Source of the DNA: Lycium barbarum
Taxonomy: Eukaryota > Streptophyta > Magnoliopsida > Solanales > Solanaceae
Assembly: GCF_019175385.1 (NCBI RefSeq)
Contig: NC_083346.1
Span: forward strand, 62,711,821-62,775,820
Direction: 5' to 3'
Length of the DNA: 64,000 bases
Shown here: piece after piece, positions 1 to 50,845 of the stretch
Layout: every line of letters starts with the position of its first letter
Position numbering within the stretch: position 1 is the first letter of the stretch
Program-made: the position numbers and the translations under genes
Notes under the pieces: model-generated
Databases searched by the model: none
What the model was told of the DNA's origin: nothing
Seen by the model: the letters and a program-made list of their open reading frames with translations, nothing else

Positions 1-1094
1 ATATGGCCGTGTGTATACTACATTGTATGCATGTGATGTGTTGAATTTTATGTTGCATTCTAGTTGTGTGTAGGATGGAATGTATATTGAGAATGAAGGT
101 TGAATGAATTTGATGGAAGTTGGGAAAATGGAGTGTGGCCGTGTGGTATTTGAAGTTGGAAGGAGAATGAATTAATTTGGTTTAACATGTTTGTTGTGTT
201 GTTGTGATGCTTGCAATGTAAATAAAGATAAAATGATGTAAGTTTGCAATTAAATGGAAAGTACAAGTTTATGCCGTTTTAGTATGATTTTATGACATTA
301 TGAAAATGGAGTTGTTAAGGTGCAAATTATGATCATTGTTGATGAATTTGGGATATGGAAGCATGTTATGAATAAGTATGTTAAAGATTATATGTTTTGA
401 ATGAATTATGACTTTGGTGGAAAGTTGTATATTTTGTATATCGAATGAATATTTCGTACAAATGATATGAAGTGTTTCCAAACTATATTGTGATGATTTT
501 GGTTAATGATGAATGTGAAATCCTTGAGACTTGTTTGGAAATTTGAAATTTGAAATGGAAGTATTGCTTTATGTAGAAAAGAAGAATATTGACGTTAGAA
601 CCATTTTGATGACATTCGTGATAACTTTGGTATTATGGGTTGTGTTGTTGATATTTATTGAGCCGAGCTAAGCCTCGGGGATGTTATATGTATAGGGGAG
701 GTGCTGCCGAAATTTCGGCAGACAAACATGAAGTTAAGTGAATTCTTAAGTTTTGCAATTCCTAATTGGTAACAATGACCAATTGCAGATTTTGGACGAA
801 ACGGGAATCGAGTTTGAACGAGCGTAAGAAGTGAGAAAGGTATGTAAGGCTACCCCATTCCTTCTTTTGGCATGTCCTAGGTATACTAGGTCGATATTGG
901 AGCCCCGGGGGCAATTCTGTTCCTTGAAATCCGAAATGGAAATCGAGTACTATTCCTTCAATTGAATTGAACTATAAAACTCATATTTTGTTGGAAAGTG
1001 ACCATATGTTCAAAACGTTTGTAAACGTAATCGATTTGCTTTGAAACCTCCATGTATGATTCCATAGACCCCAAATGTCCGCGGTTCAGGTCCG

Positions 1095-2800: not shown

Positions 2801-3477
2801 AATATGTACACAAAATAATAATAGCACTAGACTACAACTCCTAAGCAAATGGAGCGCTCCTTTGCAATCGCTGATGAAGCACCAAGGGATCTAATCCATT
2901 TCCCTGCCTACCTGCGGGCATGAACGCAGCAACCACAAATAAAAAAACGTCAGAACGAATAATGTACTGAGTATGTAAGGAATGAATAACAACATAATGA
3001 AAATATAGAAGAAACATGAGATAGGAAAGATAACCTGCATACCTGTTGCCTCTTAAGGCAGATATCATGCATGTTTAGTTTTCTTTTAAAAAAAACATTT
3101 TCATGCATATATAATATAAATGTTAGTGCTGCGGAACGTGCGGCCCGATCCATATATCATATCATCCCGCGTCCGGGGTATCCCACATCCCGGTATCATC
3201 ATAATGTATCTACTACAGTGGCGTGCACATCTACGTGCCGTAACCGGCCGACTATAGCGCGGCTTGGTGTGAGAAAATATCTACATATATATAAAGCATG
3301 CATGAGAGCCCAAATAAAAGCTATAAATATATCGAAGTGACGTAAGGTCGGTAAACCTCCGATTTCAATTATGAAATCATCATCATCGCTATATCTCATC
3401 TTGAAAGAACAACTACTATAAGATGAGATCAACAATAATGAATAAAACCAATAATCATGGAACAAGCTCAACGATAT
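2801..3477 (-). mobile_element. LTR-3, left segment (minus orientation)
   Basis: LTR sequence in reverse orientation. The HP3 stem (CTGCGGGCATGAACGCAG) lies near 2912-2932 and a weak HP1 near 2962-2980. An S2 stem lies at 3394-3428 (TCTCATCTT with AAGATGAGA), a co-varied version of the CTCACCTT/AAGGTGAG stem of other copies. It continues at 8629 after LTR-4. Its own left end is missing because LTR-2 sits there. Confidence 0.75.
3394..3428 (-). other. S2 stem-loop, co-varied form
   Basis: TCTCATCTT (3394-3402) pairs perfectly with AAGATGAGA (3420-3428). Most LTRs here have CTCACCTT/AAGGTGAG, and LTR-11 has CTCGCCTT/AAGGCGAG (40460-40491). Substitution of both partners in different copies is the classic sign of a selected stem. 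Confidence 0.65.
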
Positions 3478-6129: not shown

Positions 6130-6330
6130 CGTTCTGCCTCACCTTGAAGGAAGTAGTATATAAGGTGAGTGTGTACAATGCATAACATCATCAACCTTAT
6201 GGTACTCTGCCTCACCTTGAAAGGACAATACATAAGGTGAGTGTACAGAATACATAACATACTTGACTTAATGGTATTCTGCCTCACCTCGAAGGGAATA
6301 ATGTATGAGGTGAGTGTGTACAACATACGA
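6130..6330 (-). repeat. Tandem triplication of the S2 stem-loop, ~72-bp unit
   Basis: Three units begin TCTGCCTCACC. Each holds a complete stem: CTCACCTT/AAGGTGAG at 6138-6169, the same at 6211-6241, and CTCACCTC/GAGGTGAG at 6283-6314. The third unit has changed both arms and stays paired. LTR-10 has the matching array near 16365-16560 on the other strand. Confidence 0.85.
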
Positions 6331-14226: not shown

Positions 14227-14881
14227 TGTCATGACCCGACTAGGGGCCATGACGGGTACCCGGGGCTAACCACCGAGCACCGCTCATACTATTACCTATC
14301 GTACTCATCCTACTTTCATTCATTATTCTTATACTCAAAGTCATAGGAAAACCATTTCCATTTGGAACATATTTACCTTTATATACACAAGCCTTCCGGC
14401 TATCAAAATAATATATATATACAATGAGGAAATCGTGAGACCATACTACCCACACATACGTATCCACGAGCCTCTACTAGAGTACTAGACATAGGGATGG
14501 GACAGGACCCTGTCGTGCCCAAAATACATGTATATACACAAAAAATAAGTCAATGGTACCTCCGGAATAATGGAGTTCTCTCAGGTCAGCAAATAGCTCC
14601 TACGAGTCTGGATCACCTGTCTGCCTACCTGTGGGCATGAACACAGCGTCCAAATAAAACGGGCGTCAGTACGAACATTGTACTGAGTATGTAAGGCATG
14701 AATGAAATGAACATAATAGAGAAATCATAAGACATAAGATAAAGATATAACCTACGTAACTTTTAAGGGTGGATACATTTCATACATATCTCATATATAA
14801 TCATAGTACATGTATCATCATAGCGCATATATCATCGTATGATATATATCATCATCGTTAACCCGTGTCCGGGTAACCATC
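14227..14881 (-). mobile_element. E2 3' LTR, segment 1
   Basis: Starts TGTCATGACCCGACTAGG and runs to the CCATC target of LTR-10 (14877-14881). It includes HP5 (GGGATGGGACAGGACCCTGTC) near 14495-14515 and HP3-HP1 at about 14629-14690. Confidence 0.9.
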
Positions 14882-15214
14882 TGTTACACCTTGGAAAATT
14901 TCCCCGTTAATGTACAGTGAATAGGCTAGGGAATAGCATGAAGTATACGATGAGTTGATAAGTAAGAGATAGCATTTGATGATCCTAATCGAGATTCAAA
15001 GACATTTGACCAAAAGGAAGAAGTTTTACAAAGAAAGTAAAGGATATGTTATGTGCCGGGTAGGAATTTTAAGCGACGAGTTATTGATGGCGTAATAACG
15101 TCTTAGAGAAGAGTAATAACATCCCTTAGATTGGTATTGAGGTGTTAAACAAGTGCCAAGAAGGTTCCATGAGGATCGGAGATCAAACGAGTCGACGAGA
15201 ACGAGTCTCGAATA

Positions 15215-15406
15215 GCTGGACATTATACGGCCAGACATACTGGCCGTATAAAATCCACGGACCGTATGTCCAGCTGTAGGTTCAGCCCAGAATGGCACAC
15301 TTCACTGGACCAAACATACGGTCCAGACATACGGCCAGTGAAAAATATACGGACCGTATGTTGGTCTGTATGTTCTGGTCGGGACAGATTGTGAATTAAT
15401 ATAAGG
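15215..15406 (+). promoter_or_regulatory. LTR-10 U3 palindrome array with TATA-like site
   Basis: Words such as ATACGGCCAG, GGCCGTAT, CGGACCGTATG and ACATACGGTCC recur between 15215 and 15385. AATTAATATAAGG follows at 15394-15406. Then comes a C/T-rich 'CATTTCATTTCATTTC' leader. Arrangement suggests promoter-proximal binding sites; the binding factor is unknown. Confidence 0.6.
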
Positions 15407-16364
15407 AACCTCTTTCTCATTTCATTTCATTTCATTTTCACTCCACAAGTCAAGAAAACTCTAGAACACTATCCAATATTCATCTACAATAAACCAAAGG
15501 GAATCAATGATCAACTACATCAAAACCATGAAATCAAGTGTATGAAACCTAGTAAAGGTTCATCTACCTCAAGAAAACCCAAGGGAAGTGAAGTAGGGTT
15601 TTGGTGCTAGAAGAGTAATTCCAATCAAGGGTTGTTCATCCATCATCTAAGGTAATTTTCATGACCATACTATGCTGTTTAATGTATTGGGAGTCTAAGA
15701 CACTTGAATTGTAGAAAGACATAGAAAATGGGTCATAAAATGAGTGAATAGTGTCATTGTTGAATAGTGGTTGGGATGAATCATGAATGTTGGTATATTG
15801 TGATTGTGAATATGTTACAAGTGACATTTAGACCATTGAATGAGTATTATATATGAGAAAACGCGATAATGAGCTATAACCATAATTGTGGAGAAATTGA
15901 AGAGAAATGGTGAATTGTGGTAAAGATAGATAAATGATGATTGTTGTTTGCAATATTGTGAATGTTGTTGTGAGCGTTCGGAAGTTGATATAGAATGTGG
16001 GGAAAGTAGTATAAACAAGAGGAATGCTGCTCAATTTTCCCTAGAAATAGCGACACGTTCTTATAGTCGATTAACTAATGTTAATGCGAATTCTCTCTTG
16101 AAGGTAGAAACGTCGCATTGAAGGAGAACAAGCGAATGATAGATTACTTAAACGTAAAAGGTATGTGAGGCTAGTCCTTTCTTTCTATGGCATGAATCTG
16201 ATGGTATGATTCTCCTTTCTCTCCATGAATTCTCTCTCTATATATATACCGGAAAGTCAAGAGTCTATGATCATGAATAGCTATATGAGATAAGAGATAT
16301 GATATGAGTCCAAAGATTCTAGAGTTCATGATATGACGTCCCTATAACGCTAATGATGTTGTAT

Positions 16365-16560
16365 GTTGTATACACTCGCTTCATACATTATTCCCTTCGA
16401 GGTGAGGCAGAATACAATTAAGTTAAGTATGTCATGTATTGTATATACTCACCTTATGTATTGTCCCTTCAAGGTGAGGCAGAGTACCATAAGGTTGATG
16501 ATGTTATGCATTGTAAACACTCACCTTATATACTACTTCCTTCAAGGTGAGGCAGAATGC
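16365..16560 (+). repeat. Triple S2 stem-loop array in LTR-10
   Basis: Three units of about 72 bp. The first stem is CTCGCTTC (16375-16382) with GAGGTGAG (16399-16406). Its two non-Watson-Crick positions are G-U and U-G in the sense strand. The next two read CTCACCTT/AAGGTGAG. Confidence 0.8.
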
Positions 16561-17024
16561 TTGCGAATGATCCATAATGAAATTGGGGGATCACGACCTT
16601 ACGTCACCCCGATAAAGTATAGTTTTCCTTGAGTCTTCATGCATGTATTATGATGAGCATATTATGATAAGAATATTATGATGAGCATATGATGATGATA
16701 TTACACCATACCAATATGGACAGGCAGATATACACACCACTATAGTGGGCAGCTTATACCCCGGATGCGGGAGGCCTGGACGCAGGTTATTATTATCACA
16801 CCGTACCTCTATGGACGGGCAGCTTATATATTATCACACCGTACCTATATGGACGGGCAGCCTATGCTTATACTTATACATTTATACATATATGATATGA
16901 TGATGAGTATGAGTAAGACAGCATGATTTATTTCTTCCATGATTCACAGTCTGTTACAGATTGCTCCTCATTTGATGCCTCCTCATTTCATTGATGTTTC
17001 ATTATTTTTTATGCCTCTCATACT

Positions 17025-17081
17025 CAGTACAATGTTCGTACTGACGTCCGTTTTCTTTGGACGCTGTGTTCATGCCCACAG
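17025..17081 (+). other. Stem-loop chain HP1-HP2-HP3 in LTR-10
   Basis: CAGTAC/GTACTG (17025-17043), CGTCC/GGACG (17045-17063) and CTGTG/CACAG (17064-17081) are all perfect, with only 0-1 nt between stems. HP4 (GCACTtCatt...GGAGGTGC type) follows near 17139-17160 and HP5 (GACGGG/CCCGTC) near 17196-17215. Confidence 0.65.
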
Positions 17082-17487
17082 GTAGACAGGCAGCTGAGCT
17101 TGATCCGGACTCGTAGGAGCCAGTAGCTGATTAGAGAGCACTTCATTGTTCCGGAGGTGCTATGATTATTCTTTTGTGTATATGTATTTGGGCATGACGG
17201 GGTCTTGTCCCGTCCTTATGTCTAGCACTCCAGTAGAGGCTCGTAGATACGCAGTGTGGGTTATATGGTCTCATGAGATTGCTACTATGTATATGTATTA
17301 TTTTGCTGGCCGAAAGGCTTATGTATATAAAAGTATTTATATTTTCAAAGGAAATATGACTTTCTCACGATTTGAGAATAATTTGATAAAAGAGCGTTAA
17401 ATGAGTATGATGAGTAGTAGAACGAGCGGTGCTTGGTGGTTAGCCCCGGGTACCCGTCGCGGCCCCTAGTCGAGTCATGACACCATC

Positions 17488-26588: not shown

Positions 26589-26600
26589 GCTCTGATACCA
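26589..26600 (-). other. E1 primer-binding site (initiator tRNA-Met)
   Basis: In sense TGGTATCAGAGC, complementary to the 3' end of plant initiator tRNA-Met, lying 4 nt inside the 5' LTR end at 26605. The position and the 12-nt match are decisive. Confidence 0.95.
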
Positions 26601-26604
26601 CTTC

Positions 26605-28963
26605 TGTCACGACCCAACAAGGGGCCGCGACCCGGAGCTATATACCGAGGACCGCTCACTCTACTACTCATTTTACTCATTTAATGATCTTTTGCCAGTT
26701 TTACACATGAATGTATAGGAAACATAATTTGTATCAAAACATAAGTACTTTATATTCATATGTCTCTCGGCCATCAAAATAATATATACATAATAATAGC
26801 ATCTTTTGAGACCACCTGACCCACACTACGTATCTACGAGCCTCTACTGTCATAATGAATACATAGACGGAACAAGACTCCGTCGTGCCCAAAATATATA
26901 TATACATATATACCAAAGAGAAATGATAAGCACCTCCGAACAATGGAGTGCTCTCCACCGCTGACAGCTCCTAAGTATCTGGATCAAGCTCGCCTCCCTG
27001 TCTACCTGTGGGCATGAACACAGCGTCCAGAGAATGGACGTCAGTACGAATATTATACTGAGTATGAGAGGCATAAACAATGAAGAAAATCATCAATAAT
27101 ATAATAAGAGCATCAATATAAAGCATATGGATCTGACCGATAATCATGAATGGAATAATGCATGCTGTCTTACTCATATTTATCATCGTAACATGTATGC
27201 ATCATATGCAAGCTGCCCGCCCATGTCGGAACGGTGTGATAATCAATAATATAAGCCCGCGTCCAGGCCTTCCGCGTCTGGGGTACCATCTCATGCCGCC
27301 CACTAGTGGTGTCTGCCCACGCACGAAGGTCGTGGTGTATCCGTATCGCCGCCCGCCGAAGCGGTGTCTGCCCGGCCAACTAGGCCCGGTATACAATGCT
27401 CATGCCATGCTTATCATAAAATAATCATAATAATGTACTCATTGTAATATACTTATCTTATCATAGCACATGCGTAAGGTTTGAGAACAACTTTACTCTA
27501 TCGGGGTGACGTAAGGTCGTGACCCCCCCCCCCCCCCCCCGATTACTTTATGGAGCAATTACGGACATTCTGCCTCACCTTGAAAGGACTAGTACATAAG
27601 GTGAGTGTAGGCAAGGACTAACATCATCATCATCCTAACATCATCATATCGTATAACTTATCTCATATAGGCATTTAACTTTTTGGAATGTAGGAGCTCA
27701 TGGAAAGATGGTAATTCGGACTATAAGATTCATGCCATTGGAAAGAAAGGACTAGCCTCACATTACTTTCCATTTAGCTAAGTTGTTGTCCACTTATTCT
27801 CCTTCGATACCACGTCGTCACCTTCATGAGAGAATTCATACTTCATTAGTTAATTAACTACAAGAACGGATCGCTAGTTCTAGGAAAATTTGGGCAGTAC
27901 TACTTTTCCCATGTTCTATATCTACCGCCATCATTCACAATGCTATTCGCAATATCGCAATCAAAATCATCATTTATGTACCATTAACAAAATCCACCAT
28001 TTTCCTCCAATTTTCCCATATTTCTACCTATAGCTCACCTTAGTGATTTTGTGCATTTACTACTTGCCTCACGTTATAAACATCATTTATATCGTATTTG
28101 TACTCTCAACACTTCAACATTCATGATTCAATTCCACTATCATTCATTTATGTCACTATTCACTTAATAATGACCCATTCCTATGTTCTTCTACATTTTA
28201 AGTATCTAAGCCTTCCAATACCTTGAATCACGTGGTATAGTCCTGAAACATAATGATTGAACAGGCCTTGAGTTGAAATACTTCACTTAGCCAAAACCCT
28301 AGTGTCGCCCTTTTAAGGATTTCTTGACTTAGATGATCTTTTGATGTGTTCCTACACTTGTTTTCATGAATTTAGTGCTGTTGATCTTGATGTTCCCTTT
28401 GATTCTCTTGAATTCTTATGGAGGAAATATTGGGAGAGTTCTAGAGCATTCTTGAGTTATATGGAAGAAAAATGAAGTGAAATGAAGCCTAAGTTCCTTT
28501 TAATAAACACAAAACTGATCTTTAATGAAAAAATTGTCGGGATGAACAGTGGTCGTAAACCACAGTTTACGGACCGTATTGTGGTTTACGGTCCGTCCTC
28601 CACGATTGTTTTTAAGCATTTCAAAAACAGAAAGTTTGGCTAAGGGACATGGCAGTTTACGACCGAGGTTTACGGTCCGTAACCAGTTTACGGGCCGTCC
28701 TCCAAGTCGTTTTTAGCCATTTAAACACTTTGACAGAACTTGAAATTTTTGGATAGCTGGAGGATGATTGCACTATACGGTCTGTAAATCACTTTACGGG
28801 CCGTATAGTTCCCTTTACGATCACTGAGCTGAAAATTCCCCGCCACTTCCTTATTTCCAAAAATTCATAATTAGCCATTCCCGACTTAGTAAAACATCAT
28901 ACACTCAAGCCCTTCATTGTTCTACTCATCACCCAAGTACGGAAAAATTTCCGAGGTGTAACA
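26605..28963 (-). mobile_element. E1 5' LTR
   Basis: About 2359 bp. Signals left to right: HP5 GACGGA/TCCGTC at 26866-26884 (other elements have GACGGG/CCCGTC, a co-varied pair), HP4 near 26932-26952, HP3-HP1 at 27006-27060, a C18 run at 27523-27540, S2 at 27574-27605, and a U3 palindrome array at 28549-28820. Starts TGTCACGACCCAACAAGG. Confidence 0.93.
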
Positions 28964-50269: not shown

Positions 50270-50281
50270 GCTCTGATACCA
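50270..50281 (-). other. E3 primer-binding site (initiator tRNA-Met)
   Basis: Sense TGGTATCAGAGC, 4 nt from the LTR edge at 50286, identical to that of E1. Leader sequence between Gag and this site is also close to E1. Confidence 0.95.
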
Positions 50282-50588: not shown

Positions 50589-50659
<71 letters not shown>

Positions 50660-50782
50660 CCTCTACTAGAGTACTAGACATATGGACGCGACAAGACCCC
50701 GTCGTGCCCAAAATACATATATATATAAGCCTCTACTAGAGTACTAGACATATGGACGGGACAAGACCCTGTCGTGCCCAAA

Positions 50783-50845
<63 letters not shown>

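Follow-up and report, generated by a model that had tools for sequence, protein, structure and literature searches.

A compact three-hairpin module, probably acting at the RNA level, in diverged LTRs of plant Ty3/gypsy chromoviruses

Three short hairpins (HP1, HP2, and HP3), preceded by an unpaired conserved flank, constitute the best-supported structural unit of the LTR analyzed in this work (core module, positions 17016..17083, + strand), which is delimited by its fold and by the stretch common to 14 of 15 pairs of LTR families. This widespread three-hairpin module probably works at the RNA level and, judging from the sequence, we tentatively read it as an RNA structure that acts in cis within the sense transcript of Tekay/Del-type chromoviruses, a reading to which we give somewhat less than an even chance. 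The unit is smaller than the seven-stem chain for which an earlier, sequence-only reading of the same DNA had proposed selection in diverged LTRs: HP1-HP3 are its best-supported part, but it is not supported for all seven stems, as the support for HP4 and HP5 is mixed, S1 had been given no sequence, and S2 is a separate element. Nor does the proposed placement in R/U5 find support as it was stated.

Host Elements and Genomic Context

The window, i.e., the whole 64,000-nucleotide stretch of DNA analyzed, is plant DNA densely filled with nested Ty3/gypsy elements, which make up much of many plant genomes. Domains scoring above cut-off in its ORFs were RVP_2, RVT_1, RNaseH, Integrase_H2C2, and SH3_Tf2-1; Chromo reached 26.0 bits in one ORF (cut-off 25.1) and 24.4 in another, and rve scored 22.0, under its cut-off of 32.6. 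By their protease, reverse transcriptase (RT), RNase H, integrase, and chromodomain, the elements are Ty3/gypsy chromoviruses, and from their long LTRs we take Tekay/Del to be the name that probably applies to them. Amongst the best 120 of 7,979 RT relatives, the named ones were mostly from flowering plants, Tanacetum first, and those listed included Nicotiana sylvestris (85% identity over 68%) and many Solanum sequences.

The hairpins are carried by a solo LTR of 2,601 bp (14882..17482, + strand; TG...CA, boundaries set by self-comparison), which has the target site duplication CCATC on both sides (14877-14881 and 17483-17487) and is inserted into an LTR of an opposite-strand element. Insertions are nested within 14224-36891, where one LTR of element B contains the solo LTR together with element A. 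The primer-binding site (PBS) TGGTATCAGAGC directly follows the LTR at 26589-26600 and 50270-50281. In families 53346 and 59398 (L109-L112), the LTR pairs are 5.7 and 4.9 kb apart, which is short for a full gag-pol element.

The Core Module and Its Copies

The flank (17016..17023, +) reads TCTCATAC in the solo LTR and TTACATAC in most copies. It is followed by HP1 (17024..17044, +; 7 bp, 7-nt loop, TCAGTAC/GTACTGA, arms 17024-17030/17038-17044), HP2 (17045..17063, +; 5-6 bp, CGTCC/GGACG, arms 17045-17049/17059-17063), and HP3 (17064..17081, +; 5 bp). HP1-HP5 lie where the sequence-only reading had placed them, at 17024-17214, and include the proposed CTGTG/CACAG stem of HP3 (17064-17068/17077-17081), whose loop is TTCATGCC with CATG.

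The minimum free energy (MFE) fold of 17015-17085 consisted of exactly HP1, HP2, and HP3, abutting one another (-21.2 kcal/mol), and this 71-nt core had a z-score of -3.10, with none of 200 shuffles folding as well; its antisense strand gave -2.95 (2/200 as good) and the whole 209 nt gave -1.61. There was no Rfam match above the gathering threshold in the whole 64 kb, and two patterns for the module had no match in the viral and prokaryote contigs. A splice donor (CAG/GT) after HP3 was rejected by eye, as several families read CAGGTCC.

The anchor pattern TTACATAC...TTCATGCC...GT, which sets no pairing requirement, had 48,955 matches in the single genome searched (1.67 Gb, 164 contigs), 24,494 forward and 24,461 reverse, versus 2 (one forward and one reverse) for the reversed-pattern control; the solo-LTR copy, with its flank TCTCATAC, is outside these matches. 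The copies gathered from the window (15) and from genome places (171) numbered 186, or 179 without exact duplicates, and 126 at <92% identity, i.e., 14 window rows, 35 pattern loci, and 77 rows of neither kind; the genome similarity searches gave the best 40 per query, near relatives of that query, and families are thus unevenly sampled. Because the exact loop TTCATGCC served to pick the window copies and the anchor pattern to pick 40 loci, change counts in those motifs are biased downward, and analyses were repeated on 91 rows (without pattern loci) and on the 77 rows selected by neither pattern nor exact loop. In the 77 rows, CATG of the HP3 loop was present with C in 71, A in 77, T in 75, and G in 73. 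Among the genome sites listed, those with long spacing frequently had long G or C runs in the HP2 region.

The extent of the shared unit was read from six LTR families (15 pairs); the pair lineage 1/59398 gave no match at E 1e-3, and the core lay inside the shared stretch in the other 14 pairs. It was the sole match in three of the 10 pairs with at least 1.49 kb of sequence on both sides, spanning, relative to the HP3 loop, -59..118 (1845/53346), -107..16 (2917/59398), and -73..16 (53346/59398); the 13544 family, represented by 634 nt only, gave one match in each of its five pairs. In the tightest pairs, similarity stops at about -54 and +17 from the HP3 loop, i.e., at HP1 and HP3; lineage 1, 2917, and 53346 have further stretches in common. 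The HP3 loop precedes the PBS by 418-530 nt in 30 out of 121 places, with up to one mismatch tolerated (a 31st candidate, with a mismatch and at 1105 nt, was not counted); in L109 and L111 the distance is 385 and 394 nt, respectively.

Conservation of Stems and Loops

Internal-to-terminal ratios of branch change were calculated on a tree made without the stem columns, for 126, 91, and 77 rows (values below in this order). Low internal change was robust for the HP1 stem (0.16, 0.12, and 0.10; p<=0.00025 each) and the HP3 loop (0.04, 0.04, and 0.09; p=0.0005, 0.003, and 0.038), and in the other parts it varied with the row set. The HP3 stem gave 0.26, 0.22, and 0.22 (p=0.003, 0.039, and 0.10) and the HP2 stem 0.27, 0.26 (p=0.065), and 0.29 (p=0.47), so that the constraint on both is weakened by the p-values of the 77-row set. 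The ratios were 0.68, 0.36, and 0.28 for the HP1 loop, 0.65, 0.52, and 0.41 for the HP2 loop, and 0.68-0.70 for spacers (126 rows). Changes in the flank were few (0.62 internal and 3.00 terminal per column in 77 rows), and its ratio (0.30 in 126 rows) was not significant in any of the three sets (p=0.21, 0.57, and 0.39). Within the 77 rows, low internal change was confined to the HP1 stem, the HP3 loop, and the HP5 stem.

Sense RNA or DNA Element

An RNA or a cruciform had been proposed for the hairpins. Sense RNA is moderately favored over a cruciform or DNA palindrome when the alifold result and the G.U bias are weighed together with the equal z-scores of both strands. RNAalifold, which had been suggested as a check, recovered HP1 (7 pairs), HP2 (4), and HP3 (5) on the sense strand of the 126 rows, and returned no structure for their antisense strand. 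Core A-U pairs passed to G.U 19 times versus 3 times to A.C (p=0.0002 against the per-site background), and G-C pairs showed a weak G.U excess in the core (103:59, p=0.064) and none in HP4-HP5 (65:74); G.U states were found in 40/126 rows at one HP1 pair and in 31/126 at one HP3 pair. Single-sequence z-scores were alike on both strands (-1.93 and -1.96, n=42; below -2 in 20/42), and the MFE fold within 225 nt included HP1, HP2, and HP3 in 61, 59, and 40% of copies.

The same region might be read as a DNA element, with proteins binding to the inverted repeats and to a fixed motif within a core promoter, and an upstream T-rich tract and TTACATAC that mark the transcription start region. T-rich DNA does lie immediately upstream, the flank and the HP3 loop change per column no more than the stems do, and of the 30 placed copies only 5 have TATAAA or TATATAA anywhere from HP3 to the PBS, at scattered positions. 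However, the sequence of HP2 varies while its pairing is kept, which, together with the A-U to G.U bias and the sense-only alifold structure, makes this explanation unlikely, if still the strongest of the alternatives. The TATA-like TATATAAA (17324..17331, +; lineage-1 window copies) was rejected as a general promoter, as it is not shared across copies.

Stems and Motifs Outside the Core

Support for HP4 and HP5 is mixed. HP4 (17138..17160, +; 7 bp with one bulge, arms 17138-17144/17153-17160) showed no low internal change in 126 (ratio 0.39), 91, or 77 rows. For the stem of HP5 (17196..17214, +; GACGGG/CCCGTC, arms 17196-17201/17209-17214) the ratio was 0.47, 0.23, and 0.16 in the three sets (p=0.49, 0.004, and 0.0006), and for its loop 0.19 (91 rows). 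Together, HP4 and HP5 fold unremarkably (z -1.00, 35/200 shuffles as good). The HP5 variant GACGGA/TCCGTC, which had been listed earlier, is present in the copy at 27011, and the 59398 family lacks HP5, which agrees with the earlier remark that stems are absent from some copies. Inside one LTR (50643-50797), a 70-nt unit with the HP5 block stands in tandem about 2.2 times. A further candidate, HP6 (GCC-GAAA-GGC, 17309..17318, +), absent from the earlier list, was spotted by eye downstream of HP5 in copies of several families, with GCC...GGC around different loops in others.

Alternatively, the hairpins and the UGUA-rich stretch after HP4 might form a 3'-end formation signal that determines where polyadenylation takes place in the 3' LTR. 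An TTTTGTGTATATGTATTTTGGG-like stretch is visible by eye after HP4 in several families, and we take it to resemble the plant far-upstream poly(A) element; but it lies outside the core and HP4 is without low internal change, and we hold such a signal to be improbable.

The inverted repeat S2 (CTCACCTT/AAGGTGAG, 16520..16551, +; 8/8 paired) had been listed as part of the chain of stems. The repeat is real, but it is separate: it precedes the core by about 0.5 kb here and by 294-897 nt among copies, and was not found in every family. Its variants read as previously written at 3395, 6283, 16520, and 40460, the first of them having been placed one position off, at 3394. It should be stressed that the S2 search demanded at least 7 of 8 pairs, and the frequency of broken S2 is not readable from it. 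Tandem 72-nt units with S2 occur at 6133-6317 and 16366-16558, and the S2 copy number varies among LTRs.

Compensatory Changes

Same-branch double changes were scored against a tree null. They numbered 5 in HP1 versus 1.1 expected (p=0.003), 15 versus 3.1 in HP2 (p=0.0017, the floor), 4 versus 1.2 in HP3 (p=0.02), 3 versus 1.8 in HP4 (p=0.27; canonical retention p=0.013), and 9 versus 3.9 in HP5 (p=0.012; six of the nine GC>AT). Their frequency was 1.65-fold over control in HP5 and equal to control in HP4 (ratio 1.02). None of 20 register-slid controls reached p 0.05, and a tree including the stem columns led to a similar outcome (6, 13, 4, 5, and 8 doubles for HP1-HP5).

Such doubles may arise as a mutational artefact, in which cytosines that decay in both strands of the arms mimic compensation and shared ancestry adds to it. 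The type produced by this decay, CG>TA or GC>AT, accounted for 25 of the 36 doubles, it was also found in complementary non-partner columns (0.43 per pair vs 0.83 per partner pair), and the global covariation test described below is dominated by subfamily structure. Nevertheless, with event counts matched, decay-type doubles remained at about 2.0-2.3 times control (a ratio with no separate p-value), non-decay doubles numbered 11 in 30 partner pairs versus 32 in 505 control pairs (in the core, 8 in 17 versus 2 in 140), and the HP1 stem kept its low internal change in the 77 rows, all of which renders the artefact quite improbable.

HP2 contributed seven of the eight core non-decay doubles, in 5 pairs, and keeps its pairing through the states CGTCC/GGACG, CCCCC/GGGGG, and CGCCC/GGGCG; two of the variants reported earlier were confirmed, CCCCC/GGGGG (copies at 1845 and 59398) and CGTCCC/GGGACG (13544). 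The re-pairing permutation gave p=0.0005 for all stems pooled and 0.0035 for the core, and 0.50, 0.84, 0.51, 0.09, and 0.09 for HP1-HP5 singly, the single helices being too small for it. When arms were swapped among 89 distinct copies from the 100 pattern matches listed, with no account taken of ancestry, canonical cells fell from 95.5% to 81.7% (maximum 86.5%) in HP2 and from 94.8% to 91.0% in HP3; in HP1 they were the same before and after (96.6% and 96.5%), and HP1 is therefore conserved, not covarying.

A lack of pairs that co-vary significantly beyond the phylogenetic null had been named by the sequence-only reading as its refutation, and in an R-scape-like test of all 21,528 column pairs none was significant (best E 9.7 and 8.9 in two runs), the top pair was outside the stems, and HP2 pairs ranked 5 and 9. 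Among the 30 proposed pairs, two of HP2 passed (E 0.018 and 0.026). Compensation is clear for HP2 only; the statement that arms change together holds for this stem, beyond controls, but in the others the doubles are mainly CG>TA or GC>AT. Template-switch correction during reverse transcription, which would keep the arms complementary with no RNA selection, would account for both HP2 arms changing on one branch, but it should remove the G.U states, which are common, and is very improbable.

Possible Function

If the core is a cis-acting RNA structure, as we prefer to read it, it would be part of the transcript, possibly close to the genomic RNA's 5' end (within R or where U3 meets R), as three abutting short hairpins of which the third would expose a nearly invariant UUCAUGCC loop. 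It might then be a recognition signal for packaging, dimerization, or strand transfer whose contact would be the HP3 loop with its self-complementary CAUG. The CATG loop is the likeliest contact; the specific role (packaging, dimerization, or strand transfer) is a guess, with a low chance of being right. Should the TATA at 17324 serve, the core would be in U3 and the hairpins in the untranslated part at the RNA's 3' end; should the UGUA-rich stretch after HP4 be a poly(A) element, the core would be in R.

No ORF of at least 90 aa follows the PBS in eleven copies of the 1845 family (1.15 kb) and in one 59398 copy (0.59 kb), and the core is kept in them; in other families, related ORFs, putatively gag by position, follow the PBS. 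Retention of the core in ORF-less copies agrees with a cis signal that is used in trans, although a long leader would give the same picture. A further, rather improbable suggestion is that the module is the plant counterpart of the retroviral leader, i.e., a compact three-hairpin RNA of coding and possibly also non-autonomous chromoviruses, the UUCAUGCC loop of which would pair two genomic RNAs or bind Gag. If true, this would explain the mobilization of parasitic copies in trans and survival in tens of thousands of copies. A compact module kept during LTR divergence gives RNA-probing experiments a defined target and can serve as a marker for such LTRs. Searches of the open-licence literature turned up no account of leader or packaging structures in plant Ty3/gypsy elements.

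Comparison with Known Systems

The R and leader regions of retroviruses contain hairpins such as TAR, the poly(A) hairpin, and DIS/psi. The predicted hairpins of the core resemble them in being short, abutting, and in fixed order before the primer-binding site, and the likeness seen is one of arrangement.

Another point of comparison is offered by the LTR palindromes of Sireviruses (Ty1/copia), which are conserved in diverged plant elements and have been discussed as cis-regulatory and as a source of siRNA (Bousios 2010, PMC2829016; a 2016 maize study as cited in PMC10760457). The likeness consists in palindromic elements conserved across diverged plant LTRs. However, Sireviruses have one palindrome in many copies, with a CGG-CCG core, upstream of a TATA box in Ty1/copia elements (PMC2829016), and the module studied here consists of three different hairpins in a single fixed order, located in the 3' part of Ty3/gypsy LTRs. 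With Ty3/gypsy-type domains in the window and three different hairpins, these elements are not Sireviruses.

Retrozymes, reported to be plant LTR-type elements with hammerhead ribozymes (PMC4918200), likewise have a structured RNA on a plant LTR-type element, but differ in the ribozymes; no Rfam family of any kind matched the window. Finally, in work on LTR profile HMMs, residual conservation in long R regions was linked to stem-loops (Benachenhou 2013, PMC3601003).
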